NCBI GenBank assembly: GCA_030018495.1
Contig: JASEFS010000001.1
Coordinates: 1 to 64,000 of the forward strand
Length of the DNA: 64,000 nucleotides
Direction: 5' to 3'
From: Deltaproteobacteria bacterium
GTDB lineage: Bacteria > Desulfobacterota > Desulfobaccia > Desulfobaccales > 0-14-0-80-60-11
Made by a program: the position numbers and the translations under genes. This document shows positions 47,490 to 63,952 of the stretch, in pieces (position 1 is the stretch's first letter; each line of letters begins with the position of its first letter). A model generated the notes under the pieces. The model was not told the origin of the DNA. It saw only the letters and a list, made by a program, of their open reading frames with translations, and searched no databases.

Positions 47490-49031
47490 TTAAGAGGTGG
47501 AAGTCTCCGGCGTGGGTTTGCCCAGGAAGTCCCGGGCCATGCGGCTGGCCTCGGCCACCCGCTCTTTTAAGGGAAGACCCATGAGATCAGGGTGAAAATT
47601 GACGTAGTTTTTCAAGCAGTAATACAGCATTTCCACTTTGCGCCGGTCCCCGGCCAGATCGGGATTTTCTTCAAGGCATTCCTGAATGACGGCCTCGACT
47701 TCCTCGTCCTTTTGGGATTGTTGCGCCCTCTTTTTCAAGGTATCGTTTAATTCGTCCAGCGCGCCCGGCTGAAAACTGGAAAAACTTTTTAAAATAGCTT
47801 CCTGCTGGTCGTCGGACAGATCTGCATCAGGCAGGAAATTATCCACCAGTTCGGCAACTTGGCGTTCCAAATCCGACCAATCATGCATAAATCCAAGGTG
47901 GTTGCCTTCCAACTGTTCGAAAACGGCGGTTTGGCCTCCTTCTGCAGGTAAGGGTTCATGAAAATAATCCTGGGCCCATTTGGCCAGTTGCTGCTCCAAT
48001 TCGGCCGCCCGGCTGGACAATTTCCGCAGCTCCGCGAGCATGGCCTCATAACGGCGCCGCTCAATGACCACCGGTTCGTCTGATAGCGGGGCATTCGGCC
48101 CGGCTTCGGCGCGGGACTTCGGTTCAGCGCATTCCTGGGTGCCGGCGGTCACCAGTTTCACCAGATAATCCCAGTTTTCATCCCGCTTGCGGGCATCGCC
48201 GTGGGGGGCATGCCAGAGAAGGCCCAGAAGCAGGTTAGGGTCGTTGAAACCCTCTTCCACGGCCGTTTCAACCAGGTTCTCATAATATTTTTCAGGAGAA
48301 TCGGCAGGAGCCAGCAAGGCCTGGAGTAAAGCCGCCCGAGAGGCCACCAGAGGGAAAACTTCCTCCCACGTAGGGATTTCAGCTTTGGAGGCGATTTCAA
48401 GCATCCCCGGGACTTGCTCCTCGAGAAATCGCCACAGCGCGGGCGGGGGATATTGAGGCGGGCTCTCCCAGGGAGGAATCAGCCATAACCAGGCTTCTTC
48501 GTCCGGGGAATCGGCTTCGAGCGGGACTTCAACCAAACCGCCTTCTCCATAAATTGTGACCAGGGCGTCCTGCAAAATCGAAGCATTAGGGACGCGCCGC
48601 CCCTGGGGGATGGCATAAAAGTGCCGTTCCAGGCTGCCGCCGTGCCTGGCCACACAATCGGCCCGCCAAATGCCCAAGCGGTCCAAAACCGCATCACCTT
48701 CTCCAACAGCTACTTCCACGACAAATATATTGGACCGGACCCCGGTATGAACTGCCAATCCCAGAGAACTGCCGCGTTCTTCAAAATCGGCAAGCTGGAA
48801 GGACCATAAGTCCTGGGGCTGCTGAAAATCCACCGGCAGTTCGGCGGCCGAGGCGGTATCCAGCGCGGCCAGGTCCCAGCCAAGCAGGAGGTAACGGGAA
48901 GCACAAGCCGCCACCCGGCTTTCCTGCTTCTGCCGTTCCTTTAAGCTTAGGATGCGGCCCAATTCGTCTTCCCCAAGACGAGGAGAGAAAATTGACACCT
49001 TCTTATCGCCCTCAGAGCCCATATTTGCCAC
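47490..49031 (-). CDS. Prim-Pol-like protein, active site degenerate
   Basis: 513 residues. The first 210 residues read like the primase-polymerase fold of replication proteins: ASRYLLLGWDLAAL (44-57), SSLGLAVHTGVRSNIFVVEV (88-106), RHGGSLERHFYAIPQG (129-144), IYGEGGLVEVPLE (160-172) and LIPPWESPPQYP (184-195). The acidic DxD expected after the HTG strand is replaced by VEVA, so catalysis is doubtful. The rest is helical, with a C-terminal domain (about 445-505). It follows the E1-like gene after a 396-base gap. It could instead be a bespoke protein of the Ubl system. Start GTG 49031 or ATG 49022. Confidence 0.5.
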   Translation of the reverse strand: MANMGSEGDKKVSIFSPRLGEDELGRILSLKERQKQESRVAACASRYLLLGWDLAALDTASAAELPVDFQQPQDLWSFQLADFEERGSSLGLAVHTGVRSNIFVVEVAVGEGDAVLDRLGIWRADCVARHGGSLERHFYAIPQGRRVPNASILQDALVTIYGEGGLVEVPLEADSPDEEAWLWLIPPWESPPQYPPPALWRFLEEQVPGMLEIASKAEIPTWEEVFPLVASRAALLQALLAPADSPEKYYENLVETAVEEGFNDPNLLLGLLWHAPHGDARKRDENWDYLVKLVTAGTQECAEPKSRAEAGPNAPLSDEPVVIERRRYEAMLAELRKLSSRAAELEQQLAKWAQDYFHEPLPAEGGQTAVFEQLEGNHLGFMHDWSDLERQVAELVDNFLPDADLSDDQQEAILKSFSSFQPGALDELNDTLKKRAQQSQKDEEVEAVIQECLEENPDLAGDRRKVEMLYYCLKNYVNFHPDLMGLPLKERVAEASRMARDFLGKPTPETSTS

Positions 49032-49427: not shown

Positions 49428-50696
49428 TCACATAACAACGGCGCCATTTTCATAAAAAACATTGGGCGGCCGCACCCCGGCCAAGAGCTGGCAGCCGGCG
49501 TCCACCATAAGGCCGGCCACGATCTGGTTGGTCATTATAACTGCGGGATTGGGCTGGTAAATGCAGGCCAGCCGGGAGCGGTCATAGGGGCCCGGGTCCC
49601 TCTGTTCTATAATCTCCGACAGCCCCAATAACTCCGCGGGGGTCAGGCGGTCCCGGGCCGGGTCATATACTATCACCTGGCCGGCGGCCGCGCCGGTGCC
49701 GCCGCTGATGAGCAGTTTGCCGTGGTCTCTGGCCTTTTCACTGAGAACTACCCTGGTCTCAAAATTGTCCACGCAATCGATGATAATGTCATAGGGGGAG
49801 ACGTCGGTGTCTGCCCCGAAATAGCCGATCAAGCCGCGAGCCCGAGTGCCGTAGTGTTGGTTAAGGCGTTCGGCCAGCGCCGGGGCTTTGTTCCGGCCTA
49901 CGGCATCATAGAAAAAAATCTGCCGGTTCAGGTTGGTGGGCTCCACCACATCCGGGTCCATGAAGGTAAGGTTGGAAAAACCTGAAAACGCCAGGCCCAA
50001 ACCCACGAAATTTCCCAGGGCGCCGGCGCCCACCACCAGGATGGAGCGGTTTTGCGAACCAGGCGGGATTTTTTTCCTAGAATAGGTGATAAGGTCAGGC
50101 GACACGGCGCGGCCCATCAAATAATTTTTGGCTTCCTCCAAGGCGATCCCGGCGCCGATGATTCCCAGCACCGGGTCATGGGAGAGGGGTCCCGGCAGGT
50201 TCCGAGGCGGCATCACCTGCTCGAGCTCCTGCCATTCCCGTCCCTTGAAATAGGTGAAAATTTGCAGCCCTTCATTGTCGCAGTCTGTGATGAAAGACCC
50301 TCGGATAACCGCGCGGTTTTCGCGGAAAGCCTTTCCTAAGGCCAGCTTGGCGGCCAAGCCGTAAGAGCTCAGATCCACGATGATGCGGCAGTCCGAAAAG
50401 AAGTCGCCTAAAAAAGGGTGACTGTAAAAACCTTCCAGTGCACTAAGGCGCAGTTCCGGGTTGAGCTGGGCGGCAATTTGGGTCAAGGTGGCGTCCAGAT
50501 AAGGCGCGATGACTTTCAGGCGGTTAATCCCCAGGGCGGCGGCGGACAGCAGGAAGAGCGAGGCCGCGGCATCAGTGTCGCCCACTACGCCGACGGCGGC
50601 CTGCTCCAAGGCCTGCTGATTCCAGCCGTCGATGCGCAACTGCCGGTCCAGCCTTAAGGCAGAAGCACGATGAGAAGGAGCCTGGTTTTGGGTCAT
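49428..50696 (-). CDS. E1-like ThiF-family enzyme with two Rossmann halves
   Basis: 422 residues. The C-terminal half is an active-looking E1/ThiF domain: nucleotide loop GAGALG (223-228), acidic D247, R258 in NLNRQ, K270, DCVDN (307-311) and a Cys (C378) before a segment reading QPNPAVIMTNQIVAGL, the expected place of the thioester cysteine. The N-terminal half begins RQLRIDGWNQQALEQAAVGVVGD, an E1-type start, but has GDTDAA in place of the glycine loop, so it looks inactive. Two unequal halves recall eukaryotic UBA1. Probably adenylates and transfers the Ubl at 54.4 kb. 66 bases, partly CAAAAAC-type repeat, separate it from the JAMM gene. Confidence 0.85.
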   Translation of the reverse strand: MTQNQAPSHRASALRLDRQLRIDGWNQQALEQAAVGVVGDTDAAASLFLLSAAALGINRLKVIAPYLDATLTQIAAQLNPELRLSALEGFYSHPFLGDFFSDCRIIVDLSSYGLAAKLALGKAFRENRAVIRGSFITDCDNEGLQIFTYFKGREWQELEQVMPPRNLPGPLSHDPVLGIIGAGIALEEAKNYLMGRAVSPDLITYSRKKIPPGSQNRSILVVGAGALGNFVGLGLAFSGFSNLTFMDPDVVEPTNLNRQIFFYDAVGRNKAPALAERLNQHYGTRARGLIGYFGADTDVSPYDIIIDCVDNFETRVVLSEKARDHGKLLISGGTGAAAGQVIVYDPARDRLTPAELLGLSEIIEQRDPGPYDRSRLACIYQPNPAVIMTNQIVAGLMVDAGCQLLAGVRPPNVFYENGAVVM

Positions 50697-50762: not shown

Positions 50763-51560
50763 TCACATTCTTTCAATTACGTCCGGCTTATAAGGAACGG
50801 GCCGGATTTTCTCAAGCACTTCCGCTCTGAGAAGCCTGACATCATCCTCCGATAAGCGCCTCTCAGATTCGACATAGCGCAACTCCGCCGCCCGGCTGCG
50901 GATCGCGGCATGGCCGGAGAGGATGCTGCGCTTTTTATAATGAATCTCCTGGTGATGCCAGCCGCCGTCCCCGACCACGATGGCGTAGCAGAAGCCGCCG
51001 ATGATGGTTTCCAAAAGAACGGCCTCCTGAACGGGCCTGTCGGTGATCAAACTGACGCTCCCTTTGGCCAAATCGGTTTCCTGATAGCGGCCTTCGACCA
51101 GGCAGACGAGATCATCAATCACAATTTCCCGCTTCGCCACGGGTTGCCGGAGCTTGGTGGTGACGTAATCCAGGACGGTGCGCTGGTTGGCTTCGTCCAC
51201 CGCGGAAAACTTGCGCAAATCCATGCTGCCATGGGAGTGAATCCAGCCGTTAATGACCAGGTCGGGGGGGAGTTCTTCCTGAAACGCGGCGATTTTCTCC
51301 GGAACAAGGCTGGCGTACTCCAAGATGTTTTCTTCATTGACGGGGAGGCCGATGTCAATAATGGTCTCCGGCCGGTCGCGGGCCGCCAGGGTGAAGCCGT
51401 ACCATTCAAAGCTGTCTTTAAAAGACTTGCGCACCAGTTCGTTGATCTTGAAGGCTTTGTCCAGGGCGAAGCGGGTGATGGCAATATCTTCGGGCAATGC
51501 AGCCAGCATGATTTCCCGGGGTTCCCGCCGCTTCAAGCCGGTCAGGGACTTGAACCTCAT
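50763..51560 (-). CDS. JAMM/JAB metallopeptidase
   Basis: 265 residues. The full JAMM zinc motif is present: E52 (FEWYGF), then H108-S-H110-G, seven residues, S119, two residues, D122 (IHSHGSMDLRKFSAVDEAN). This is the isopeptidase signature of Rpn11, CSN5 and bacterial Cap3/BilC-type enzymes. The rest of the protein has no recognised domain; the C-terminal third is helical. Overlaps the AAA+ gene by 4 bases (ATGA). Inferred role: trimming the Ubl precursor and removing the Ubl from targets. Confidence 0.88.
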   Translation of the reverse strand: MRFKSLTGLKRREPREIMLAALPEDIAITRFALDKAFKINELVRKSFKDSFEWYGFTLAARDRPETIIDIGLPVNEENILEYASLVPEKIAAFQEELPPDLVINGWIHSHGSMDLRKFSAVDEANQRTVLDYVTTKLRQPVAKREIVIDDLVCLVEGRYQETDLAKGSVSLITDRPVQEAVLLETIIGGFCYAIVVGDGGWHHQEIHYKKRSILSGHAAIRSRAAELRYVESERRLSEDDVRLLRAEVLEKIRPVPYKPDVIERM

Positions 51561-52660
51561 GCCAGTTTTTCCCTTACATAATGCCGGTCCAGGTGGAGCT
51601 TGCCGGTGAACGTGCCGGGAAGCCGATACATGTCTTCCAGGAGGATGCGGTGCAGAATGCTGATGAGACCACGGGCCCCGGTGCCCTCCTGTTTGGCCTG
51701 CTCGGCGATGAGCCTTAAGGCTTCATCATCGAATTCCAGGTCGATGCCCCAGACCTTAAGGTCATTGCCATAGGCCAGCAAAGGGCTGTCCGCGCTTTTG
51801 GTCATGATGTCCATCAGATCTTGGATAGTGAGGGGGTCGTACACCACCTTCACGGGAAACCGGGCCATGAGTTGGCGTTCCATGCCGAAGGACACCAGGT
51901 CTTCGTTCAACAAAAAGTTCTGCCATTCCCCGGCCAGGCTCTGCTTGACCATGCGCCGCTTGACAATATTTTTCAGGTCTTCGAACACACCGCCGGCGAT
52001 AAACAGAACGTGTTTGGTGGAAATAGAGATTCTCTCCTGGCCCCACTCAAAGGTGTTCTCGACGCCCTCAACCAAGCGGAGAAGCCCCTTTTGAACGCCT
52101 TTGCCGGAGACATCCCGGGTGCTGACGCTTTCGGCGGCGATTTTATCGATTTCATCGAGATACACCATGCCCATTTGGGAGATGAGGGGATTGCCGCCGC
52201 CGGCGACCAAAAGATCCACCAGGATGTCCGTGACGTTTTGGCCCACATAACCCACTTCGCTGAACTTTGTCATATCTTCGACCACGAAGGGCACGCCCAC
52301 TTGTTCGGAAAAGGTTTCCGCGGTGTAGGTTTTGCCCACTCCGGTGGGGCCGATGATGAGGATGTTGGCCTTCGGGGTGCGGGTGTTCTTCAGGGCCTGC
52401 TCCAGGTCGCCTTTGTATTCCCCTAAAACCTGCTTGAGCGCGGAGGCCAGCCGGCGATAGTGGAAGGCCACCGCGGTCGCTATGATCTTTTTGCCTCTTT
52501 CCTGGCCGATGACGAACTTGTCCACATCTTCTTTGAGGTCGACCGGGGTCTTGTTGAATTCCAGAATGTGCTGAATGGTGCCGCCGGTTTTCTGGTCACG
52601 GAATGCTTCCAGTTTTTCCTGGATGCGGCGGCGGCTTCGTTCTGAAGTGCTTTGGCTCAT
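51557..52660 (-). CDS. ClpX-like AAA+ ATPase without ClpP-docking loop
   Basis: 367 residues. Walker A GPTGVGKT (104-111), pore loop GYVG (137-140), Walker B VYLDEIDK (166-173), sensor-2 GTGARG (326-331) are intact. It has no zinc-binding domain, and where ClpX has the IGF loop this protein reads RRMVKQSLAGEWQNFLLNED (235-254), without IGF. It should be an unfoldase that does not use ClpP. Position between the unknown 176-aa protein and JAMM, with 4-base overlaps on both sides, makes a stoichiometric complex likely. Confidence 0.87.
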   Translation of the reverse strand: MSQSTSERSRRRIQEKLEAFRDQKTGGTIQHILEFNKTPVDLKEDVDKFVIGQERGKKIIATAVAFHYRRLASALKQVLGEYKGDLEQALKNTRTPKANILIIGPTGVGKTYTAETFSEQVGVPFVVEDMTKFSEVGYVGQNVTDILVDLLVAGGGNPLISQMGMVYLDEIDKIAAESVSTRDVSGKGVQKGLLRLVEGVENTFEWGQERISISTKHVLFIAGGVFEDLKNIVKRRMVKQSLAGEWQNFLLNEDLVSFGMERQLMARFPVKVVYDPLTIQDLMDIMTKSADSPLLAYGNDLKVWGIDLEFDDEALRLIAEQAKQEGTGARGLISILHRILLEDMYRLPGTFTGKLHLDRHYVREKLA

Positions 52661-53187
52661 AAATGTTCCTGCTGTTTATTGTTAATAATGGCGTTCAGCC
52701 GGTGCAGGAGGCTTCCCCAGGCAGCGGCAAGCTCTGGGTTGGCTTCCGCCTCACCGGCCGATTCTAAACGGGAAATTTCCCGTTGGATGATTTCCCGAGC
52801 CGCCAGGGTGCGGAAATGCACGCGGGCCAGGGCGGCCGGCGCCAACTCGGGATTCAGGCGGAAAAGCGGCCCGGAGAGCAACAATTCCTCCGGAGAATGG
52901 GCGAACCTGAGATAAGGATTGTCGGCAGCCGCTAAAATTTCCTGGGTTAACCAATACCCTGGTGCACCGGTCAGAGAAAACAGCGGCGCTTCAAAGGAAT
53001 CCTTTTCTACCAGGCCCAGGGCCAGCAGTTCTGCCGCTCCCGGCAGGGAAAAATCCCGGAGTTGGGCCAAAAAGCCGTGGTCAAGACCATATTCCCGCAC
53101 CAAGGCGCTGACCACCGTAAAAGCGGTCCTGGCGAAAGGCTTTTTGGTCCTGGTCCGAGCCTGTTTAAGGTGCCGGCGGATATCCAT
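52657..53187 (-). CDS. Unknown helical protein of the Ubl operon
   Basis: 176 residues from ATG 53187, one base after the upstream stop (TGATATG). Basic N-terminus (MDIRRHLKQARTRTKKPFAR), then mostly helix. It contains no cysteine, so it is neither a RING nor an E2/HECT-type ligase, and shows no motif I recognise. Conserved position between the E2-like and AAA+ genes suggests an adaptor or substrate-recognition subunit. Overlaps the AAA+ gene by 4 bases. Confidence 0.7.
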   Translation of the reverse strand: MDIRRHLKQARTRTKKPFARTAFTVVSALVREYGLDHGFLAQLRDFSLPGAAELLALGLVEKDSFEAPLFSLTGAPGYWLTQEILAAADNPYLRFAHSPEELLLSGPLFRLNPELAPAALARVHFRTLAAREIIQREISRLESAGEAEANPELAAAWGSLLHRLNAIINNKQQEHL

Positions 53188-53188
53188 A

Positions 53189-54364
53189 TCAGTCAAAAAT
53201 GTTTTTTATTTCGACCTCCCCTGAGACCATTCTGGGATCATCAGGAGGCACCCGGTAATCATCAAAACTAATCAGCCGCTCCTGGTGAATGCGGTCCAGG
53301 CTGTGGTAGCCGTTGCGCCGACGGGCGTTGTAGCCGTAATAAAGCGCATTGATGCCGGTTTCCAGGGCCTTGATAATGTTGGCGGCGCTGAAGGTCAGGG
53401 ACGGCTGAAAATCTTTGGGCGTGCAGATGTCCTGGCCGGAGCTGTGGCGGCGCAGCAGCGGGTGCTTGTAATGCTCGATAACAAAAGGGGTGAGGCGCCT
53501 GGCGGTGGAAACCGCCACCCGGCAGTCGGGAAAAATATAGGGGCGGCCGTAGAAGTCTTTGAGGGCGTAGACGCCGGTGCGCTTATAAATGCGGTACTCG
53601 TTTTTGCCGCGCCCGCGGGCAAAGCCGAAGCCGTCCACCTCCAGCGAGCCTTTTTCAACCAAATAAGTCAGGAGGCCGCTATGCCTGCGGTATAGGTCGG
53701 CCCATTTTTCTTGTTCAGCCAAGGCCTGGCTGAGGCGGGCCCGTTCCTGGGCCGAGATTTTTGCGGCTAGAGCCTGAAAAAACCATTCTTTGAGAACGTC
53801 GGCCGGCACCAACCCTGAGGGCGGCGGGCCCGGGCTGCGTTCGGCCCGATCGGCCAGGCGGGCGATGGCCGCACGCAGGTTTTTATTCTCCGGCAGCTTA
53901 CCGCTTTGCCTGGCATAGGGCGGCGGGAGCTGCACATGTTCCTCAATCAATTCCAGCAACTCCTTCCGGTCGAGGCCGCGCCGGGACAAAGACCGGCTGC
54001 GCTTCAGAAAATAGGGCATTATCTGGAAAAGGATGACCGCAAGCACAGGGTCCGGAAGGCTTGGATTATCCCGGTTGGACTCGGGGATATCGCCCAATAC
54101 GGACCGGCGCATCTCCTCCCACCCTACGGGGTCAAAGTCGGCATACTGCTCAAGCAGCGATTCCAGTTTGACGGTCTTTATAAAAGCGGAATCCTGGGCC
54201 TTGATTAACAGGGGGCTGGAAGGAACAGGATTGCCTTGGGAATCCAGCTCGGCGGGTGGATTGGCTTCAAGTTCCTGGGCTATGTAGGGATCGAAGACAA
54301 GGGGCAGATATAAGAAATTCCCGGCCACCAACAGACCGGGATGGCAGTTCCACAGTCGCCGCAT
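53189..54364 (-). CDS. E2-like (UBC-fold) protein with N-terminal extension
   Basis: 391 residues from ATG 54364, which overlaps the stop of the Ubl gene (TGATG). The C-terminal region reads like a ubiquitin-conjugating core: a strand pair (NEYRIYKRTG, YIFPDCRVAVST), then RRLTPFVIEHYKHPLL, and HSSGQDICTPKDF where H301-P302 and C314 match the HPN..G.ICL motif of E2 enzymes; PSLTFSAANIIKALETGI then resembles the E2 helix after the active Cys. Residues 1-230 are an extension of unknown role with a helix-rich centre. The E2 call is by motif alignment only. Confidence 0.6.
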   Translation of the reverse strand: MRRLWNCHPGLLVAGNFLYLPLVFDPYIAQELEANPPAELDSQGNPVPSSPLLIKAQDSAFIKTVKLESLLEQYADFDPVGWEEMRRSVLGDIPESNRDNPSLPDPVLAVILFQIMPYFLKRSRSLSRRGLDRKELLELIEEHVQLPPPYARQSGKLPENKNLRAAIARLADRAERSPGPPPSGLVPADVLKEWFFQALAAKISAQERARLSQALAEQEKWADLYRRHSGLLTYLVEKGSLEVDGFGFARGRGKNEYRIYKRTGVYALKDFYGRPYIFPDCRVAVSTARRLTPFVIEHYKHPLLRRHSSGQDICTPKDFQPSLTFSAANIIKALETGINALYYGYNARRRNGYHSLDRIHQERLISFDDYRVPPDDPRMVSGEVEIKNIFD

Positions 54365-54762
54365 CAAATGAATCTCGAGGCTCCTGCCGGCCGACCGAAC
54401 CCTCCTTCCTGGGGTTTGATAGCTCGTATCGGCACATAGAGATATTTTTCCCCTGCTTCGGTTTCTTCTATGACTGCGCCTTCCAGGGCGCCGCCTTTGA
54501 TTTCCCGGCCGCGAAAAAGCAGTTTGCCGCCTTGGAGCTGGCGGTTGATGTCTTCGAGAATGACCTGCTCTTCAATGCTGAGGTTCTGGCGGTGCAAAGC
54601 GTCGTCGACCAATTCCTTGAGGGGGAGATGTTCATAGGTGCCGGGGTCATACACCACGACCAGCCCTTCGCCGGCCTGGCCCGGTAGAATTTCCAGAACC
54701 AGGGGCAGTTTTTCCCGGCGCTCTCCAGGGCGCCGCTCTTTTTGCAATACAGTTTCCGTCAT
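54364..54762 (-). CDS. Ubiquitin-like beta-grasp protein (precursor with Gly-Gly)
   Basis: 132 residues; first gene of the operon, with CTGGAG about 6 bases before the ATG. Predicted strands LPLVLEIL (19-26) and GLVVVYD (33-39), a helix (47-75), then GKLLFRGREI (79-88), which parallels QRLIFAGKQL of ubiquitin, and EKYLYVPIRAI (105-115), parallel to its last strand. The chain continues to EGG (119-121) and then an 11-residue tail FGRPAGASRFI. Cleavage after the Gly pair by the neighbouring JAMM would expose a mature C-terminus. An N-terminal extension (1-18) is charged. The assignment is by pattern, not by search. Confidence 0.55.
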   Translation of the reverse strand: MTETVLQKERRPGERREKLPLVLEILPGQAGEGLVVVYDPGTYEHLPLKELVDDALHRQNLSIEEQVILEDINRQLQGGKLLFRGREIKGGALEGAVIEETEAGEKYLYVPIRAIKPQEGGFGRPAGASRFI

Positions 54763-54912: not shown

Positions 54913-56541
54913 CTAAGGGGTCATTTTATTTTTTGGGGAAAGCAGACGCATCACCCGGGCGGCCGCGGCGCTCCCCTGGCAGACGGTTTCCGAGATATCC
55001 TGGGGGCCCTGGCAGGTGCCGGCCAGAAAAACGCCGGGCAAAGTGGAGTCCACGGGGTACAGAGTGGGGTGGCGCCCGCGGAGAAAGCCGAAAGCATCCC
55101 GCTCAGGGAAGGCTTCCTCAAAAACCGGCAATTCTTTGGGCGCCTGAAGGCCCGCGGCCAGAACCGCCAGGTCCACGGTGAGCTGCGCCCGCTGACCGGC
55201 TTGCTGATCATCATAGTGGATCACCGGGCGGCCCAAGGCATCGGCTTCGACGCGGCCGGGCAGGCCTTTGATGAAGCGCACTCCGGCCTTTTTCGCCCGC
55301 AGATAGAGTTCTTCAAAGCCCTTGCCGGAAGTGCGGATGTCGTTGAAAAAGATGGTGGCCTGAATCTCAGGGTCATGCTCCAGGGCCAGCATGGCCTCCT
55401 TGATGGACGCGGTGCAACAGATTCCGGAACAATACGGCAGAAAACGCCGGTCCCGGGAACCGACGCATTGGATAAAGGCCAGGGACTTGACCGGGGTCCC
55501 GTCCGGGGCGATGAGGCTGCCGCCGGTGGGCCCGGTGGCGCACACCAGACGCTCGTATTCCAGAGCGGTGAGGACCCGGGGAATCCTGCCGTAGCCGTAC
55601 TCGCTTTTGACGGCGGGGTCCAGGGGCCGGGCACCGGTGGCCAAGATGACGGCTCCCACCGCGAGCTTTTTTTTGACCGGTGCGACTCCCAGGTCAATGG
55701 CCTGGTGGTCGCAGGCCGCCACGCACATCTGGCAGTCGATGCAGTACTCTTTTTCCAGGGTGGCGCTCAGGGGCACGGCTTGGGCGAAAATGATGCGGAT
55801 GCATTTTCTGGGTTTGAGGCCCAAATTCCAGCGGCTGGGCACAATAACCGGGCAGACTTCGGCGCAGGAGCCGCAGCCCACACATTTGGCCATGTCCACA
55901 TAGCGGGGTTTGAGGGTGACCGTGACTTCAAACGCGCCGGCCCGGCCGCTGATAGAGTCCAGGTCGGCAAAAGTAAGAAGTTCGATGTTATTGTGGGTGG
56001 CCACCTCCACCAGGCGGGGGCCCAGGATGCAGATGGAGCAATCCAGAGTCGGGAAGGTCTTGTCCAGTTGGGCCATGGTCCCGCCGATGCTGAGGGAGGA
56101 GTCCACCAGATAGACCCGGTGGCCGGCGTCGGCCAGGTCCAGGGCGGCCTGACAGCCGCCGATGCCGCCTCCCACCACCAGGACGTCTCTAGATGCAGGG
56201 GCAGGCCTTGGGGCGGCTTCGGGAGGAGCCGCGCAGGCCAGAGTGAGGACTCCCGCCGCGGTCTCCGGATCGGAAATGGAAAGGAGGTCGATTACAGGCG
56301 GGGCTTTTTCTCCGAACACGCGGCGGAACAAATCGGCATTCACTTCCGGACCGCAGGCCGCGATGAGGAGCCCTTCCGGTTCGCTGGCAAGATAGTTCTT
56401 CAATTCCTTGAGGCCGGCAGGAGTGCACAGGGGTGCCGGCAGGCGCGCCGCCAGTCCGCCCCGGGCCAGGTACTCTTGCAGGACCCGGAGGTCGATTTTC
56501 AAGTCCGGACAGGGACAGATAAGGACTTTGTTTATCGTCAT
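54913..56541 (-). CDS. HdrA-type flavin/iron-sulfur oxidoreductase subunit
   Basis: 542 residues. FAD-binding GGGIGG (124-129), the HdrA cysteine block TMAQLDKTFPTLDCSICILG (155-174) that binds an extra cluster, two ferredoxin motifs CVGCGSCAEVCP (220-231) and CIDCQMCVAACD (267-278), and the C-terminal GVFLAGTCQGPQDI FAD segment. It resembles QmoA/HdrA and would pass electrons between a donor and HdrBC-like or membrane partners. Good GGTGGGAA before the ATG. Last gene of a five-gene HdrA cluster on the minus strand. Confidence 0.92.
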   Translation of the reverse strand: MTINKVLICPCPDLKIDLRVLQEYLARGGLAARLPAPLCTPAGLKELKNYLASEPEGLLIAACGPEVNADLFRRVFGEKAPPVIDLLSISDPETAAGVLTLACAAPPEAAPRPAPASRDVLVVGGGIGGCQAALDLADAGHRVYLVDSSLSIGGTMAQLDKTFPTLDCSICILGPRLVEVATHNNIELLTFADLDSISGRAGAFEVTVTLKPRYVDMAKCVGCGSCAEVCPVIVPSRWNLGLKPRKCIRIIFAQAVPLSATLEKEYCIDCQMCVAACDHQAIDLGVAPVKKKLAVGAVILATGARPLDPAVKSEYGYGRIPRVLTALEYERLVCATGPTGGSLIAPDGTPVKSLAFIQCVGSRDRRFLPYCSGICCTASIKEAMLALEHDPEIQATIFFNDIRTSGKGFEELYLRAKKAGVRFIKGLPGRVEADALGRPVIHYDDQQAGQRAQLTVDLAVLAAGLQAPKELPVFEEAFPERDAFGFLRGRHPTLYPVDSTLPGVFLAGTCQGPQDISETVCQGSAAAARVMRLLSPKNKMTP

Positions 56542-56767
56542 ATTCCCACCTAAAAATCCACGGCGAAAAGGGGAAAAGGGGAAAAGGCGAAAGAGGTCAG
56601 AAAAAAATATTTTCTTGTCAAAACCATTTGCTTCACCAGAAAAAAGTTAACTCCTTCAAGCCGAAAGGAAACCTGATTGAGAGATATCACCAAGTGGCGA
56701 TTGAGCCAGGTGACACAGGCGTCTCTGCGAGAGCGGAGGTTGAAGCCTGCGGCTGCAAATAACACCT
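56542..56767. repeat. GGGGAAAA runs and CACAGGC palindrome
   Basis: A GGCGAAAAGGGGAAAA-type tandem run at 56561-56592 and a decayed CACAGGC..GCCTGCGGCT palindrome at 56711-56757 separate the two HdrA genes. The same repeat pair recurs in the next gap (59141-59307). Confidence 0.7.
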
Positions 56768-59140
56768 CTATTCTGGGTTTCCCTTTTCTCCTTTTCCCCT
56801 TTTCGTCTTTTCCCCCTTCTCCAGGGCCTCGGCCATTTCCCGGATAACCTTTTGAAATACCCTCCCCTCGGTGGCGGATATCCAGGCCAGGCGCAGGCGG
56901 TCGGGATCGATGCCCTTTTTGGCCAGTTTGGTTTTCAGTTTCTCCACCCTCTCCCGGGCGCGCAGATTGCCGGACACGTAATGGCAGTCCCCCGGGGGAT
57001 GGCACCCGGACACCAGGACCAGGCCGGCGCCCTTCTCAAAGGCGTGCAGAATGAAATTGGGATGCACCCGTCCGGCGCACATGGTGCGGATGATGCGCAC
57101 CTGGGGGGAATATTGCAGGCGCGAGACCCCGGCGAAATCGGCCCCGGCATAGGAGCACCAGTTGCAGCAAAAGGCCAGGATTTTGCTTTCGGGGTCGGAG
57201 GCCAGGGCCTCGTCGATCTGCGCCAGAAGCATGGCATCGGTAAAGCCCAGAGAAGTGATGGCGCCGCTGGGACAGGTGCCGGCGCAGATGCCGCAGCCCT
57301 TGCAGGCCGCGGTTATGACCCGGGCTTTGGGTTCCTCCTCGGTGCCCGCCATGACAATGGCCTGAAACGGACAGTCCTCGGCGCAGAAGCCGCAGCCCAG
57401 GCAAAGCTCTTCGTTGACTTCGGCGACCAGGCCTTCCAGCGTGATGGCGTCGTGGGCGAACAGGGCCAGCACCTTGGCCGCCGCGCCCGAGGCCTGGGTC
57501 AGGGATTCGGCGATGTCCTTGGGGCCCTGGCAGGAGCCGGCCAGATAAATGCCGTCCAGGACGGTTTCCAAGGGCTTGAGTTTGGGGTGGGACTCCAGGA
57601 AAAAGCCGTCCGGCCCCACGGGCAGTTTCAGCACTTCTCTCAAGGGCGCGCCGTTGCCGGGAGTCAGCCCCACCGCAAGAACGGCCAAATCAACCTGGTC
57701 TTCGGAAGTTGACCGGAACAATTCATTGTGCGCTCTAATCAGGAGCCGGCTGTCACCCGCGGCTTGAATATCTTCAACTTTGCCTCTTAAAAACAGGATG
57801 CCTGCGTCACGGGCGGCGTTGTAAAGCGCTTCCCAATCCTTTTTGACCGTGCGGATGTCCCGGTAATAAATGCGGATGCGGGCTTCGGGCAGGCGGTCCT
57901 TGAGCTCCAAAGCCTGGCGCAGGGCGGTGGGGCAGCAGATGCGGGAGCAGGCCCGGTTGCCGTCTTCCTCCCGGGAGCCCACGCACATGATAAAGGCGAT
58001 ATCCCGGGGTTGCTTTTCGCTGTAGGGCAGGAGCACCCGGCCCCGGGTGGGGCCGTCAGGGGCCAGGAGGCGTTCCAGATTTAAGGTGGTGACGACTCCG
58101 GGAAGTGCGGCCCAGGCCTCATAACGGGTGCCAACGGGGTCAAACGGCTTGAAACCGGTGGCCACTACCATGGCCCCCACCGTAAAGCGGTGCTCCGTTT
58201 CTTGAAAATCAAGGCTGACAGCCCCCTGGGGGCAGGCCTGGAGGCACCGGGCGCAACGGTCGCAGTGGGCCGCATCCACCACATAGCGGGCCGGAAACGC
58301 GGTGGGGGAGGGCAGGAAGATGGCCGTCCGGAAGGCCAACCCGGCTTGGCGTTCGTCCGGCACCTGAATGGGGCAGGCCGAGGCGCAAAGGCCGCAAAGG
58401 TCGCAGGTATCGGCCACGGCAGGGACTGATTGACGCACAACAATGTCAAAGTTGCCTAAGTGGCCGGAAACCTCGGTTATCTCGCCGCCGGTGAGCACCG
58501 TGATACCGGGATGGTGGGCGACCGCAGCCATGAGCGGGTTGATTAAGGAAAGTGCGGTCTGACCGTGAGGGAAGGTGCGGTTCAGCAGATTGGCCATGCC
58601 GCCCAGGATCGGCTCCCGCTCCACTATGATAACGGGATGTCCGGCGTCGGCGATGTCCAGGGCGGCCCTCAGGCCTGCGGGGCCGCCGCCGATGACCAGG
58701 GCCCGGCGGGTGACGGGCACCTGGCGGTCGGCCAGGGGGCGGGCCAGGCGGGCCTTGGCCAAGCCCATGCGGATTAGTTCCAGGGCTTTGACCGCAGCCG
58801 CGTCAGGTTCGCCGCTGTGGACCCAGGTGCAGTGTTCCCGGAGGTTGACAAGTTCCAGCAGGTAGGGATTGAGGCCGCTCTCTATTAACAAACGCCGGAA
58901 GGTGAGCTCGTGGAGCTTGGGGGAGCAGGCCGCGATGACCACCCTGTTTATACCGAAGTGCTCAATATCCTTTTGTATCTCCTTTTGGCCGGCCTCGGAG
59001 CAGGTGTACAGGTGGTGGCGGCAGACCGCCACATCGGGAAGATGCTGCGCCTGGTTCACCAGGGCCTCAGGGTCGACGGTCCCGGCGATGTTCAGGCCGC
59101 AGTGGCAAATGTAGAGTCCGAGGCGCAAATCTTCGGTCAT
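56768..59140 (-). CDS. HdrA-MvhD fusion (QmoB-like)
   Basis: 790 residues. N-terminal HdrA domain with FAD loop GGGPAG (151-156) and ferredoxin motifs CDLCGLCASACP (246-257) and CDRCARCLQACP (293-304); later CLGCGFCAEDCP and CKGCGICAGTCP; then an MvhD domain (about 650-765) with FCCNWCSYAGAD and MCAGRVHPN. MvhD accepts electrons from hydrogenase or formate dehydrogenase. The cysteines of the HdrA block are replaced (NRTFPHGQTALSLINPL), so one cluster is missing here. The last 19 residues (EKGEKTKRGKGEKGNPE region) are encoded by a GGGGAAAA repeat. Confidence 0.9.
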   Translation of the reverse strand: MTEDLRLGLYICHCGLNIAGTVDPEALVNQAQHLPDVAVCRHHLYTCSEAGQKEIQKDIEHFGINRVVIAACSPKLHELTFRRLLIESGLNPYLLELVNLREHCTWVHSGEPDAAAVKALELIRMGLAKARLARPLADRQVPVTRRALVIGGGPAGLRAALDIADAGHPVIIVEREPILGGMANLLNRTFPHGQTALSLINPLMAAVAHHPGITVLTGGEITEVSGHLGNFDIVVRQSVPAVADTCDLCGLCASACPIQVPDERQAGLAFRTAIFLPSPTAFPARYVVDAAHCDRCARCLQACPQGAVSLDFQETEHRFTVGAMVVATGFKPFDPVGTRYEAWAALPGVVTTLNLERLLAPDGPTRGRVLLPYSEKQPRDIAFIMCVGSREEDGNRACSRICCPTALRQALELKDRLPEARIRIYYRDIRTVKKDWEALYNAARDAGILFLRGKVEDIQAAGDSRLLIRAHNELFRSTSEDQVDLAVLAVGLTPGNGAPLREVLKLPVGPDGFFLESHPKLKPLETVLDGIYLAGSCQGPKDIAESLTQASGAAAKVLALFAHDAITLEGLVAEVNEELCLGCGFCAEDCPFQAIVMAGTEEEPKARVITAACKGCGICAGTCPSGAITSLGFTDAMLLAQIDEALASDPESKILAFCCNWCSYAGADFAGVSRLQYSPQVRIIRTMCAGRVHPNFILHAFEKGAGLVLVSGCHPPGDCHYVSGNLRARERVEKLKTKLAKKGIDPDRLRLAWISATEGRVFQKVIREMAEALEKGEKTKRGKGEKGNPE

Positions 59141-59307
59141 AGTAATCTAAGGCGAAAAGGGGAAAAGGGGAAACGAGTAAAACACATTCATCATAGAGTT
59201 AATCCTTAGGCATAGCCAAGTGGCACAGGCGTCTCGCCTGTGAAAACCGCAGGCTAAAGCCTGCGGCTACATGATGGTAGCCTTTTTCGCCTTTTCCACT
59301 TTTTGTC
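59141..59307. repeat. GGGGAAAA runs flanking CACAGGC palindrome
   Basis: A GGCGAAAAGGGGAAAA run at about 59152-59175 and a decayed reverse copy at about 59281-59304 bracket the palindrome at 59221-59270 (CACAGGCG/CGCCTGTG, then GCAGGCTAAAGCCTGC). Confidence 0.75.
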
Positions 59308-60150
59308 CTATCCTTCGAGGAGTTTTCCTACCGCATGACTCCAAGCCTGGGAAAATTCCCCCGGCACGGCCACAACTTCCTCCCGGACCAGGGTAATCGC
59401 ATCCTGGTCGCAAATGTTGGTGCAGACGCCGCAAAAGCTGCAGACCCCGAGCTTGGGAAAGACCCGATCGCCTTCCCGGACGATGGCCTTGACCGGGCAG
59501 AGGTTTACGCATTTCAAGCAGTTATCCGGGCATTTTGTATCATCAATGCTGAGATGGCCGATAAATTGGGGCGTCACGCGGATGGAGCCGTACTCGCAGA
59601 CCGTCAGACACTGAGTGCAGCGCAGGCACAGGTCCGGCTCCGGCATGGTCTGGCCCGCGGCCTCGTCCAGGACAATGGCCTGGCGGGGGCAAATATCCAG
59701 ACATTTGTGGCAAAGCTTGGGGCATTCATCAAGGCTGTTCGTTACGAGCTGCAACTGCTGGCGGCACCAGTGGACGTCGCCCTCCGGCAGGGGAGGGCAG
59801 GGCTCCGGGCACTTGCCCTTGTCCATGTCCATCTTGGGATAAAACGGTGCCAGGCCCTCGTGGTCCGCGAAGATGGTCTTGGGTTCGCCGTTCACCGTAA
59901 GAGTGATCGCGGCCGCAGGGCAGAAGTGGGAGCAGATTTCACAAAGCACGCAGAGCCGGGGGTCGATGTCGATGTCCAGGTCGTCCTCGCCGGGGATGAT
60001 GCTGACGGCCTGGCGGGGGCATACCAGCATACATATGTCGCATTTCAGACAGGCCTTCCTGTCCAGACGCAGGCGCACCTGGTCCACGAACATCCTGAGG
60101 GTCAGCTCCAAATAAGCGTCAGTCTCGCGTTTGACAACCTGAACGTGCAT
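59308..60150 (-). CDS. Polyferredoxin with six [4Fe-4S] motifs
   Basis: 280 residues. Six cysteine clusters in series: CLKCDICMLVCP, CVLCEICSHFCP, CPKLCHKCLDICP, CLRCTQCLTVCEYG, CPDNCLKCVNLCP and CSFCGVCTNICD, with the middle pair separated by a Cys/Pro-rich insert (KCPEPCPPLPEG). It probably carries electrons between the HdrA proteins on either side. No Shine-Dalgarno site is seen before the ATG. Nothing indicates a membrane anchor. Confidence 0.88.
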   Translation of the reverse strand: MHVQVVKRETDAYLELTLRMFVDQVRLRLDRKACLKCDICMLVCPRQAVSIIPGEDDLDIDIDPRLCVLCEICSHFCPAAAITLTVNGEPKTIFADHEGLAPFYPKMDMDKGKCPEPCPPLPEGDVHWCRQQLQLVTNSLDECPKLCHKCLDICPRQAIVLDEAAGQTMPEPDLCLRCTQCLTVCEYGSIRVTPQFIGHLSIDDTKCPDNCLKCVNLCPVKAIVREGDRVFPKLGVCSFCGVCTNICDQDAITLVREEVVAVPGEFSQAWSHAVGKLLEG

Positions 60151-60360
60151 TTGGGAAAAACCCGATCACAGGCTGAAGCCTGCGGCTATAGTTATGCCCC
60201 TTGCCTGCAGCGCGGCGACAGATGAAAGCCGGGCACGGCCCGCGGCAGCTTACTCTCTGACAAAGCCGGGGGCACAAGGCGTGTCGCCCGGGTTGCAAAA
60301 AAGCTGTTGCGACTGCCGGGGCCATTCAGTAATTGCGATAAGCAGGGCGGAGGCCATGAA
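60151..60360. other. Gap with CACAGGC-type half repeat
   Basis: Contains the half unit CACAGGCTGAAGCCTGCGGC at 60167-60186. No gene. Confidence 0.6.
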
Positions 60361-60780
60361 CTATTTCCGGTTGCCCTCCAGGCGCTTATGGAATTCCCGG
60401 GCCTTGAGCTTCAACCGGCGACGGCGCAGGTTGATCTTGACGTCGGGAAATTCCGCCAAGAGGAAATCAAATTTGTCGCACGGCTCCAAATCCGGGCACA
60501 AGGAGCAGTTCTCGAACCCGCGAGCCGTGGCGCAGTCGCGGATGGGGCAGAGTTCGGTGCCGCGGCCACCCTTGCAACTGGGGCAATCCTTGTGCACCAG
60601 GAACCAGTCCAGGCCTTTGCGGAATTCCACAAAATCGAAGGTCTCATCGCCCGGGAAGCAGTGAATCCACCAGTTGGCCCGGAAGCGGGTCACATATTCC
60701 TTGAGCCGGGCCACGGTTTGCAAAAACCCGTGGTGGCCCAACTGGCAGTCATCACACAAGCCGCAGTAACTTTCTCTCAT
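60361..60780 (-). CDS. DUF3795 cysteine-rich protein
   Basis: 139 residues with cysteines in CGLCDDCQLGH, CPSCKGGRGTELCPIRDCATARGFENCSLC and CDKF: the DUF3795 pattern of a zinc- or cluster-binding protein. AAGGAGAAAC precedes the ATG. It lies between the polyferredoxin and the double HdrA. It may be an assembly factor or a redox sensor; the role is unknown. Confidence 0.85.
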   Translation of the reverse strand: MRESYCGLCDDCQLGHHGFLQTVARLKEYVTRFRANWWIHCFPGDETFDFVEFRKGLDWFLVHKDCPSCKGGRGTELCPIRDCATARGFENCSLCPDLEPCDKFDFLLAEFPDVKINLRRRRLKLKAREFHKRLEGNRK

Positions 60781-60913
60781 GGCGTTTCTCCTTCGGAAGC
60801 TGTCAGCCGTCAGCTATCAGCTTTAAGCTTTCAATTTTGGCCCATATAATGAATCGTAAATTAAATTTATTTAATCTTTCATTAATTTTTTCATATAGCT
60901 GACAGCTGACAGC
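60781..60913. repeat. Heptanucleotide debris around an AT-rich core
   Basis: AGCTATC/AGCTTTA units at about 60797-60835 and AGCTGAC units at about 60896-60913 border 60 AT-rich bases. The AT-rich part may hold a promoter for the DUF3795 gene, but no hexamer pair is convincing. Confidence 0.6.
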
Positions 60914-63900
60914 TCACTGCAAGGCCGCCTGGATCTGGCCAAAGAGTTCCGGTTCGGTGAAGCGGCTCATACTGATGGCCAGAGCCGGGCAGGCCGCCGT
61001 GCAGGTGCCGCAGCCGCGGCAGGCCTCCTGCTGCACTTCCGGCACGCCAGAAGTGCTGAGCCTGATGGCGCCGTAAGGGCACAAATTAATGCAACTCAAG
61101 CAGCGGCGGCATTTGCCAGCGTCTATCCGGGCATAGATTTCGCCGCTGGTGAGCTCGGTTTGGAACAGCACCGCGGCGGCGCGTCCGGCGGCAGCCTGAG
61201 CCTGAGCCACAGCCTCGCCCAAATTTTTGGGATAATGCGCCAGACCGCAGAGAAAAACCCCTTCGGCCACGGTCTCCAAGGGGTGCAGCTTCAGGTGGAT
61301 TTCCTGGAAAAAGCCTCCTGCAGTCTGCGGAATTCCCAGGAGCTTGGCCAGTTGTTCACTGCCCGGTGCGGCTTCGATGCCGGCGCTCAACACCAAAAGA
61401 TCCGCGGCCACTTCCACTTCCCGATTAAGGAGCTCGTCCCATACCCGGATGGCCAGGGGCCGGCGTCGCGGGGACTCCACCTGAGGTGGCTTGTCCGGGT
61501 CGAAGGGGATGAACTCCACGCCCATGTCCTTGGCCTGCTGATAAAAATCCTCCCGGAAACCATAGGTGCGAATATCGCGGTAGAGCACCGTGATGTCCAA
61601 AAACGGGTAGCGCTGCTTCAGCAAAATGGCGTTTTTGACGGCTTCGGAGCAGCACAGGCGGCTGCAATAGGGGTGGTCGGGCTCCCGGGAGCCCACGCAT
61701 TGGATCATTACCAGGCGCCTGGCTTTTTCAAGGACAGGGTCAAGCTCATTGATTTTTTCTTCCAGTTCCAATTGGGTGACGACCCGGAGGTCTTGGCCGT
61801 AAAGGTAGCGGCCTGCCGGGGAAATTTCCCGGCCGCCGGTGGCCGCCAAAATAACGCCGTGGACAAGCTGGCGCTCCTCGCGGCCGCCGGTGCGGCGGCG
61901 GACCCGGCTTACAAAACGGCCCACGTGGCCTTCGGTCTTTACCAGCTCGGTGTTGGTCAAGACTTCAATGTTGGGATGACGCCGAACTTCGGATTCCAGC
62001 TGAGCCACCATTTTCTTGGGGTCATGGCCTGCCAAGGTAAAATGAAGTTTTCGGGCCAGTCCGCCGAGTTCGCGCTGCCGTTCCACCAGATAGGTATGGA
62101 ATCCCTGCTGGGCCAGGGTCAGGGCGGCGGTCATACCCGCGACGCCGCCGCCCACCACCAGGGCCCTGGGAATGACGGGGAAGCGGTGTATTTCCAAAGG
62201 CGTGAGGGCCGCGGCCCGGCGTACGGCCATAGCTATAATATCGCGGGCTGCAGCCAGCGCGCCGGCCGGGTTGTCCGAATGCACCCAGGCGCACTGCTCC
62301 CGGATGTTGGCAAAGGAGAGATAGCCCGGATTGAGGCCCGCGGCTGCCAGCACCTCCCGGAAGACCGGCTCATGGGTGCGGGGCGTGCACGCGGCCACCA
62401 CCACGCGGTTCAGGTTATGGCGCTCAATGGCCTCCCGGATGCGCCTGGCGGCATCTACGGAACAGAGAAAGAGGTGATCTTCCACCAGGGCGACCCCGGG
62501 CATCTGCCGCACCATGACGGCTAATTGCTCCAAGTCAACGGCCGCGGCGATGTTGGCGCCGCAATGGCACAGGAATACGCCCAGGCGCAAGGGTGCCGCG
62601 GTTGCCGCGGGCTCGGGAAAAACCGTGGGAGCCGGCCAGGTGCGGGGGCTCAAGGCCAGCAGTTGGGCCGCGGCTTGGGCCGCCGCGCCGGCGGTGGTCA
62701 CGCTCTCCGGGATATCCATGGGCTCCCGCAGCGCGCCGCAGACAAAGACGCCCGGCCGTGAAGTGAGGACCGGGTTTTGAGGCAAAGCCCTGATAAAGCC
62801 GTGGGCATTGAGTCCGACCCCCAGGCGGCGGGCCCAGTCGGCCACGTGCGCCCTTGGTCTGAGGCCCACCGCGAGCACCGCCATATCGAAGCCCAGGGTT
62901 CGGGGGCGGCCATGAACGTCCGTGTAATGGACCAGGACGCCGCCTGCCTCCCGGGGTGCGACCCGGGTCACCCGGGAGCGGATCAGCCGGAGACCCTCCT
63001 GTTGGCCGCGTTCCAAATATTCTTCACAGCTCTTGCCGTGGGCCCGGAAGTCCATGTAGAACATGGCCGCCTCCAGGCCGGGCGGGCTTAATTCTTTGGC
63101 CACCAGGGCTTCTTTGAGCGCGGCCAGGCAGCAGGTGGCCGAGCAGTAGGCCGCGCCGTTTCTGCGGTCCCTGGAGCCCACGCATTGAATGAAAGCGATG
63201 CGGCGCGGTAAGGTTTGGTCAGAGGGGCGGAGCAGCTTCCCGGCGTAGGGGCCGGTGGCGCTCAGGAGGCGTTCAAATTCCAGGCTGGTGACCACGTCCG
63301 GGTGGGCCGCGCCCGGAAACCCGTTTACCGGCGCCGGACTTACGCCCCCGGCTAAAATAACCGCGCCGACGTGCTGAATCAGAAATTCCCGGTTCTGCTC
63401 CAGATTGACGGCGTTTGCGGCGCAGACTTTGAGGCAGGCTTCACAGGGCTTGCCCTGGAAAACGCGGCAGGCCTCCGGGTCGAGATACGCGGCTTGGGGC
63501 ACGGCCTGGGGGAAGGGCACGTGGATGGCCTTGACCACGTTCAGGCCGAGATTGTAAGGGTCGGGGATGCTTTTGGGACAGACCCGGGCACATTCGCCGC
63601 AGCCGGAGCATTTGTCCGCGTCCACGTACCGGGGCCGGCGGCTCAACAGAGCCTGAAAATCGCCGGCCTCCCCGGCCAGGTCGGTGAGGCGGGTCAAGGT
63701 GAGGATGTCGATCAGGGGGTGGCGGGCGATCTCCAGCATGCGGGGCGACAAGATGCACATGGCGCAGTCGTTGGTGGGAAAAGTCTTATCAAGCTGCGCC
63801 ATGATGCCGCCGATGGAGGGGCCTTCTTCCACCAGGGTGACGGGCAGGCCCACCGCGGCCAGATCCAGGGCGGCCTGGATGCCGGCGATGCCGCCGCCCG

Positions 63901-63952
63901 CCACCAGGACCCGGCGGCTGGCGACGCGGTGGAGGGGCTTAAGCAGGGGCAT
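60914..63952 (-). CDS. Tandem double HdrA protein
   Basis: 1012 residues: two HdrA units in one chain. Unit 1 has GGGIAG (19-24), LDKTFPTNDCAMCILSP (the cluster block) and CSGCGECARVCP; unit 2 begins about residue 460 with LGVFLCHCGANIA, has GGGVAG and ends with CRRCLSCINLCP and CRGCGTCTAACP ferredoxin motifs. Double HdrA proteins are known in syntrophs and sulfate reducers. The ATG has no ribosome binding site and an in-frame stop lies only 20 bases upstream, inside heptanucleotide repeat. Partners such as HdrB/HdrC may lie beyond the window end. Confidence 0.88.
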   Translation of the reverse strand: MPLLKPLHRVASRRVLVAGGGIAGIQAALDLAAVGLPVTLVEEGPSIGGIMAQLDKTFPTNDCAMCILSPRMLEIARHPLIDILTLTRLTDLAGEAGDFQALLSRRPRYVDADKCSGCGECARVCPKSIPDPYNLGLNVVKAIHVPFPQAVPQAAYLDPEACRVFQGKPCEACLKVCAANAVNLEQNREFLIQHVGAVILAGGVSPAPVNGFPGAAHPDVVTSLEFERLLSATGPYAGKLLRPSDQTLPRRIAFIQCVGSRDRRNGAAYCSATCCLAALKEALVAKELSPPGLEAAMFYMDFRAHGKSCEEYLERGQQEGLRLIRSRVTRVAPREAGGVLVHYTDVHGRPRTLGFDMAVLAVGLRPRAHVADWARRLGVGLNAHGFIRALPQNPVLTSRPGVFVCGALREPMDIPESVTTAGAAAQAAAQLLALSPRTWPAPTVFPEPAATAAPLRLGVFLCHCGANIAAAVDLEQLAVMVRQMPGVALVEDHLFLCSVDAARRIREAIERHNLNRVVVAACTPRTHEPVFREVLAAAGLNPGYLSFANIREQCAWVHSDNPAGALAAARDIIAMAVRRAAALTPLEIHRFPVIPRALVVGGGVAGMTAALTLAQQGFHTYLVERQRELGGLARKLHFTLAGHDPKKMVAQLESEVRRHPNIEVLTNTELVKTEGHVGRFVSRVRRRTGGREERQLVHGVILAATGGREISPAGRYLYGQDLRVVTQLELEEKINELDPVLEKARRLVMIQCVGSREPDHPYCSRLCCSEAVKNAILLKQRYPFLDITVLYRDIRTYGFREDFYQQAKDMGVEFIPFDPDKPPQVESPRRRPLAIRVWDELLNREVEVAADLLVLSAGIEAAPGSEQLAKLLGIPQTAGGFFQEIHLKLHPLETVAEGVFLCGLAHYPKNLGEAVAQAQAAAGRAAAVLFQTELTSGEIYARIDAGKCRRCLSCINLCPYGAIRLSTSGVPEVQQEACRGCGTCTAACPALAISMSRFTEPELFGQIQAALQ

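Follow-up and report, generated by a model that had tools for sequence, protein, structure and literature searches.

What does the open reading frame at 54364-54762 encode, on the minus strand of the window (the whole 64,000-nucleotide stretch of Deltaproteobacteria bacterium DNA that was analysed), and with which neighbours does its product work? An earlier note had read this frame as the precursor of a ubiquitin-like protein (Ubl), with an internal Gly-Gly, a removable C-terminal tail and an intact JAMM peptidase encoded four genes later. The sections below follow the precursor, the operon around it, the spread of that operon and its likeness to known systems.

The proposed Ubl precursor, its Gly-Gly and its tail

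The frame is a real gene, with homologues in 17 genomes of the same order (10 of 22 genomes in its own family and all 7 in a second family). Its 132-residue product has a charged N-terminus (residues 1-18, disordered over 1-15), a beta-grasp core (20-115), the sequence PQEGG (117-121) and a tail (122-132), and its stop codon overlaps the start of the following E2-like gene in the sequence TGATG. The landmarks on which the earlier note had relied, namely GKLLFRGREI (79-88), EKYLYVPIRAI (105-115), EGG (119-121, with the Gly pair at 120-121) and the tail FGRPAGASRFI (54367-54399, minus strand), lie at exactly the residue numbers that it had given.

Searches against Pfam, NCBIfam and PADLOC gave no meaningful family score for the Ubl, the E2-like protein or protein X of the same operon, the matches to LigD_N and TetR in these curated-family searches being noise. 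At the sequence level, no solved Ubl in the PDB was matched by the Ubl and no solved E2 by the E2-like protein. A PDB profile search with the Ubl alignment returned only GNAT acetyltransferases, because of tails fused to some homologues, and we therefore turned to fold comparison. The AlphaFold2 model, built from 36 homologues, reached a mean pLDDT of 81.6, with values above 90 in the core and below 50 for residues 1-15 and 121-132. It displays two strands (21-27, 34-38), two helices (48-56, 63-76) and three further strands (80-83, 97-100, 106-115), the last of which ends at residue 115, ahead of the Gly-Gly at 120-121. Nearly all of the best 50 VIA-align matches were SUMO, ISG15 or ubiquitin, headed by SUMO 5elu_B (Z 6.3, rmsd 2.6, 72 aligned) and including preSUMO-SENP2 and the Caldiarchaeum Ub-Rpn11 complex. 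Because Z scores of about 6 are modest and the Foldseek matches were weak (best E 0.05), the argument rests on the homogeneity of this list. The core is predicted to be a beta-grasp domain matching SUMO, ISG15 and ubiquitin, as the earlier note had supposed.

Alignment of homologues separated the Gly pair sharply from what follows it. Each residue of PQEGG is kept in 41/41 distinct Ubl cores, while pairwise identity over the first six tail positions is only 7-14% and tail length ranges from 0 to about 151 residues. Among these 41 cores, five have no tail and 12 carry a tail of 1-3 residues; longer tails of 34 and 48 residues (L045, L054) entered this count in shortened form. In three distinct genomes the Ubl frame stays open past the Gly-Gly and encodes a complete GNAT acetyltransferase (about 150 residues), joined exactly after the second Gly (L025, 11302-12111; L033, 4818-5633; L034, 3787-4602). 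The PDB matches of this fused GNAT are archaeal N-terminal acetyltransferases, and no GNAT was found in the remaining operon loci examined.

An invariant Gly-Gly followed by no tail, a trivial one or an entire foreign enzyme is, as read from the sequences, the pattern of a cleaved pro-modifier. One could propose instead that the tail stays in place as a neutral C-terminal extension and that the Gly-Gly serves a structural or binding function. Most homologues do have tails, the cut itself is deduced, and some tails run into the beginning of the following gene, so that their length might follow from drift of the stop codon. Against this stand the five homologues that end exactly at the Gly-Gly while PQEGG is kept in all 41 cores, from which we conclude that the tail is dispensable. 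Moreover, E1 and JAMM genes accompany the Ubl wherever the contig permits, and a Gly-Gly with a short variable tail recurs in divergent archaeal operons. We consider an uncut tail extremely unlikely. The earlier note's pro-Ubl with a di-glycine end is thus largely right, being borne out by the invariant PQEGG, the near-random tails, the beta-grasp model and a co-conserved JAMM. Neither of the two outcomes that the note had named as refuting it, homologues without the Gly pair or a predicted fold devoid of a beta-grasp core, was obtained.

A six-gene operon and its putative enzymes

Read 5' to 3', the operon encodes the Ubl, an E2-like protein, protein X, a ClpX-like AAA+ protein, a JAMM protein and an E1-like protein, and this order is repeated in most other genomes with a long enough contig. 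Of these neighbours, the earlier note on the Ubl had named the JAMM but neither the E2-like nor the AAA+ protein. In a Desulfobacterales-type subset (L048, L051, L058, L060, L076, L077) the E1 gene lies directly upstream of the Ubl gene. A 513-residue gene beyond E1 (47490-49031) was considered and rejected as part of the system, having no counterpart in other loci. Since that gene is unconserved and the flanks vary between lineages, we take the six-gene cassette as the unit; because the flanking genes differ in this way, the neighbours also give no hint of a role through guilt by association. Directly upstream of the Ubl operon in the window, large HdrA/Qmo-like flavin and iron-sulfur proteins are encoded (54913-63952, minus strand), and such proteins lie beside the operon in only few relatives.

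The E1-like protein (49428-50696, minus strand; 422 aa) appears to combine a degenerate adenylation-like N-terminal half with an active ThiF half. It scores 111 bits against ThiF and aligns with Uba4, UBA1 and ThiF. Fourteen sites are invariant in 33/33 members, among them the ATP-site residues, the NxNRQ motif, the DN pair and, where the crossover loop is placed, Cys378. The N-terminal half starts with RLDRQL, as in E1s, and has lost the GxGxxG motif; when it was compared by hhalign with the C-terminal half, the two aligned over their full length but weakly (E 0.0025, probability 12%). From these sequence features, the protein likely consists of one inactive and one active adenylation half.

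The E2-like protein (53189-54364, minus strand) counts 391 residues from its ATG, or 392 from an upstream TTG. Y299, H301, P302, L304, Q311, I313 and C314 are invariant in 35/35 members, with C314, downstream of the H301-P302 pair, as the candidate catalytic residue. In its AlphaFold2 model (pLDDT 83), about 120 extra residues, helical in structure, separate the first helix from the sheet. Foldseek found no significant match for this model; in VIA-align most of the best 50 matches were E2s, including Ube2w (at a modest Z of 6.1), Rad6/Ubc-1 types and UbcH7. The model predicts a UBC fold with a Cys placed after the HP pair. The next gene encodes protein X (52657-53196, minus strand), which has 179 residues, about 130 of them conserved, no known family and no conserved Cys, and which is possibly an adaptor.

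The JAMM metalloprotease (50763-51560, minus strand; 265 aa) is indeed the fourth gene after the Ubl, where the earlier note had placed it (51560-50763), and it is intact: E52, H108, H110, S119 and D122 are all present and are invariant in 41/41 members. In all bacterial members the second His and the Ser are separated by 8 residues (H-x8-S) instead of the usual 7, which is the spacing of the archaeal relatives. Recognition by known families was faint, with a weak match of Pfam Prok-JAB to 6/15 members (best E 0.0027) and CsRpn11 (6fju, E 0.8) as the sole sensible match in the PDB. The protein is fully conserved also at loci whose Ubl already ends in Gly-Gly (L022-L024, L029, L064, L067, L073), so maturation cannot be its only job. 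The same observation would suit a scheme in which the tail is cut by another protease and the operon JAMM acts in deconjugation alone. However, the operon holds no second protease, and in the Bil operon, a bacterial precedent, the JAMM protein BilC matures the Ubl BilA (PMC11354881). We regard cleavage by another protease as unlikely, and favour the operon JAMM as the enzyme of both maturation and removal.

The AAA+ protein (51557-52660, minus strand; 367 aa) finds ClpX as its best PDB match, with 249 bits, and keeps Walker A and B and the pore loop; GPTGxGKT (Walker A) and GYVG (pore loop) are present in 36/36 members. Aligned with the genome's own canonical ClpX, the protein shows no N-terminal zinc domain, and the IGF loop that docks ClpP is deleted, an IGF pattern being found in 1/36 members only. 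This loop is present both in that canonical ClpX and in a second ClpX-like protein encoded in the window, and genes for ClpP and an HslV-like protein are present in the genome as well. With the zinc domain and the IGF loop both missing, the operon AAA+ probably has no ClpP partner. The fixation in a Ubl operon of an unfoldase that lacks the ClpP contact suggests, at the sequence level, that the protein acts on tagged proteins as a segregase or remodelling factor.

Two further observations concern ClpX-like genes. The second one in the window (27700-29379, minus strand; 559 aa from a GTG start) encodes a protein that lacks the zinc domain, has an IGFGA loop and is extended at its C-terminus by about 180 residues; it is matched in Desulfoferrobacter suflitae by a gene of similar score and frame length. 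In two MAGs the operon's AAA+ gene is in two frames or pieces (L045, 7994-9082; L050, 2406-3358), owing to either decay or assembly error.

Taken together, the genes present and their order, the catalytic residues, the constant Gly-Gly and the turnover of the tails, all taken from sequence, and the predicted folds lead us to deduce cleavage, conjugation and unfolding in the following scheme. The tail after G121 would be removed, in the most firmly grounded step, to leave PQEGG-COOH, most likely by the operon JAMM. The E1-like enzyme would then adenylate the terminal Gly and take over the Ubl as a thioester, probably on Cys378, and the E2-like protein would receive it on Cys314 and pass it to target amino groups (lysines); no E3 is encoded in the operon. 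The JAMM would also take the Ubl off conjugates. More tentatively, the AAA+ protein may unfold or extract Ubl-tagged proteins in the manner of Cdc48, perhaps with protein X as adaptor, and would not feed ClpP.

The genes would also allow a reading without conjugation, in which the Ubl is a sulfur carrier of the ThiS/MoaD/Urm1 or PdtH type, its Gly-Gly ending in a thiocarboxylate destined for a metabolite and the JAMM serving only to expose that end. Sulfur-transfer cassettes do group an E1-like protein, a JAMM and a small beta-grasp protein (Iyer et al. 2006, PMC1779556, rows 4a-4e). However, the operon has a dedicated E2-like protein with an invariant HP...C and a ClpX-like unfoldase, while the conserved unit has no rhodanese, cysteine synthase or biosynthetic gene, and its flanks are unconserved. 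We judge the sulfur carrier very improbable. By contrast, we are quite confident that the operon is a self-contained ubiquitin-like conjugation and deconjugation system, in which the JAMM would mature and remove the Ubl and the AAA+ protein would probably remodel tagged proteins.

Spread of the operon and its archaeal relatives

When the operon JAMM was used to scan the contigs of GTDB genomes, 41 close loci emerged, from which 35 Ubls were read. The operon is conserved across the Desulfobacterota and occurs in one Methylomirabilota genome and one Woesearchaeota MAG, and an E2 of its family is encoded in 20 of 395 genomes of the phylum and in 1 of 95 Methylomirabilota. In the low-GC Woesearchaeota MAG (L072, 6011-12147) all six genes are present between flanks that look archaeal as recognised from the sequence itself, which suggests transfer between domains.

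This patchy presence (20/395 in the phylum, 10/22 in its own family) raises the question of whether the system serves anti-phage defence of the Bil, Bub or CBASS type, the Ubl being conjugated to phage or defence proteins. Such a role would leave the chemistry proposed above unchanged. Bacterial Ubl conjugation has so far been linked mainly to phage defence, and of the characterised bacterial systems the most closely related ones (BilABCD, Bub, CBASS Cap2/Cap3) have ties to defence. Nevertheless, PADLOC holds no model that recognises the Ubl, E2, X or JAMM, and its matches to the E1 and AAA+ proteins are only to shared catalytic domains. The JAMM found no match among plasmids, phages and viral contigs, and the operon includes no effector or nucleotidyltransferase gene. 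On balance, defence seems a doubtful role for the system, if one worth keeping in mind.

Distant kin of the conjugation system proposed here were found in other nanoarchaea, in Aenigmatarchaeota (L078) and on Asgard contigs (L079-L081). These loci have the arrangement Ubl-E2-JAMM-E1 or E2-JAMM-E1, without the AAA+ gene in most, indicating that the AAA+ protein is unnecessary for conjugation itself. The C-terminal sequences of their candidate Ubls are QEGG|L, DEGG|RSLEERV, EEGG|LEKKCKE, QQGG|FDGKIRA, GKGG|R and GGG|AVENFFMKI, where the bar marks the end of the glycines. By hhalign, the L078 Ubl matches the operon Ubl profile (E 3.7e-6), and the E2s of L078 and L081 match the operon E2 (E 4.7e-9 and 2.1e-7). 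The Ubl profile gave no significant hhalign match to the Asgard candidate of L081, whose assignment consequently rests only on gene order and its GGG with a tail; the Ubls of the other nanoarchaea were assigned by position and C-terminus only. From these sequences, the whole bacterial and archaeal lineage appears to share the Gly-Gly with a removable tail, and the AAA+ protein and protein X appear to have been added or kept in one of its branches.

Several of these loci have peculiarities of their own. Five nanoarchaeal loci (L127, L128, L129, L130, L131), mostly Ubl-E2-JAMM-E1 with Gly-Gly and short tails, contain extra genes without an assigned family, and L128 has two tandem related genes of 490 and 476 aa, only the first of which is matched by the E2 profile. 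In the Prometheoarchaeum-type loci L079 (3409-8500) and L080 (5222-10288), E2-JAMM-E1, with a single adenylation domain in the E1, is followed a short way downstream by an actin-like gene, and no Ubl was recognised near these three genes.

A broader reading joins these parts into a complete prokaryotic ubiquitin-unfoldase system, with a single-domain pro-Ubl, JAMM, E1, E2 and conjugates recognised and unfolded by a dedicated, ClpP-independent AAA+ protein, as a member of an ancient Ubl-E2-JAMM-E1 lineage common to Desulfobacterota, Methylomirabilota, nanoarchaea, Aenigmatarchaeota and Asgard archaea. We give this broader reading even chances. If true, it would provide a prokaryotic counterpart to part of the eukaryotic ubiquitin system. 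Archaea, including Asgard archaea, have the same core, and the six-gene operon makes it directly testable how modifier, deconjugase and AAA+ protein were brought into joint action, while the GNAT fused after the Gly-Gly offers a natural substrate for mapping the cut.

Comparison with known systems

The eukaryotic precursors of SUMO and the ubiquitin fusions share with this Ubl a beta-grasp core, a Gly-Gly about five residues past the last strand and a removable tail, which in some ubiquitin fusions is a whole foreign domain, as is the GNAT here. They differ in their ends (LRGG or QTGG instead of QEGG) and in their processing, by Ulp/SENP or other cysteine proteases where a metalloprotease presumably acts here. 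The AAA+ protein has the module and GYVG pore loop of ClpX without its zinc domain and IGF loop. The JAMM protein carries the HSH...S..D signature of Rpn11, including that of the Caldiarchaeum Ub-Rpn11 pair, but it stands outside any proteasome, has an extra residue in the motif spacing and differs in its C-terminal region.

Among bacterial systems, the peptidase of the Bub operons is of the serine-protease type, not a JAMM, and to our knowledge these operons have no ClpX-like gene. They do encode a bacterial Ubl, E1 and E2, and Citrobacter BubCD-BubB (PDB 9eae) is found in the structural list of the E2-like model (9eae_C, Z 5.0). Type 6d of Iyer et al. 2006 (PMC1779556) has a single small Ubl with a conserved C-terminal Gly, separate JAB, E1 and E2 proteins and a helical protein; unlike the operon E2, with H301-P302 invariant in 35/35, the 6d E2 is described as lacking a His before the Cys. 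BilABCD likewise unites Ubl, E2, JAMM and E1 genes in one operon; its E1 has an inactive and an active adenylation half, as is likely for the E1-like protein here, and its Ubl is matured by the JAMM (PMC11354881), as is proposed here. However, BilA has two Ubl domains as opposed to the single beta-grasp domain here, BilB uses a CEHH motif and BilD a separate Cys domain, and neither an AAA+ protein nor protein X is present. As for PRTRC, no NCBIfam match at E<=1 was obtained for the Ubl, E2 or JAMM, and the E1 match to PRTRC_ThiF, at 61.4 bits, is below the cut-off of 144.75, which led us to reject that identity.

A literature search, with most subscription journals and preprints outside its reach, found no description of this operon. 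An unfoldase of its own is missing from the described operon types compared, that is, Bil as reviewed and rows 6a-6e of Iyer et al. 2006, for which no AAA+ is described (PMC1779556). In conclusion, the operon would work like Bil and like the eukaryotic SUMO and ubiquitin precursors, yet it is not BilABCD, type 6d or, by NCBIfam models, PRTRC. If this reading is true, one bacterial cassette would unite a tag, its remover and an unfolding motor, in a logic near that of ubiquitin, Rpn11 and Cdc48 or the proteasome.
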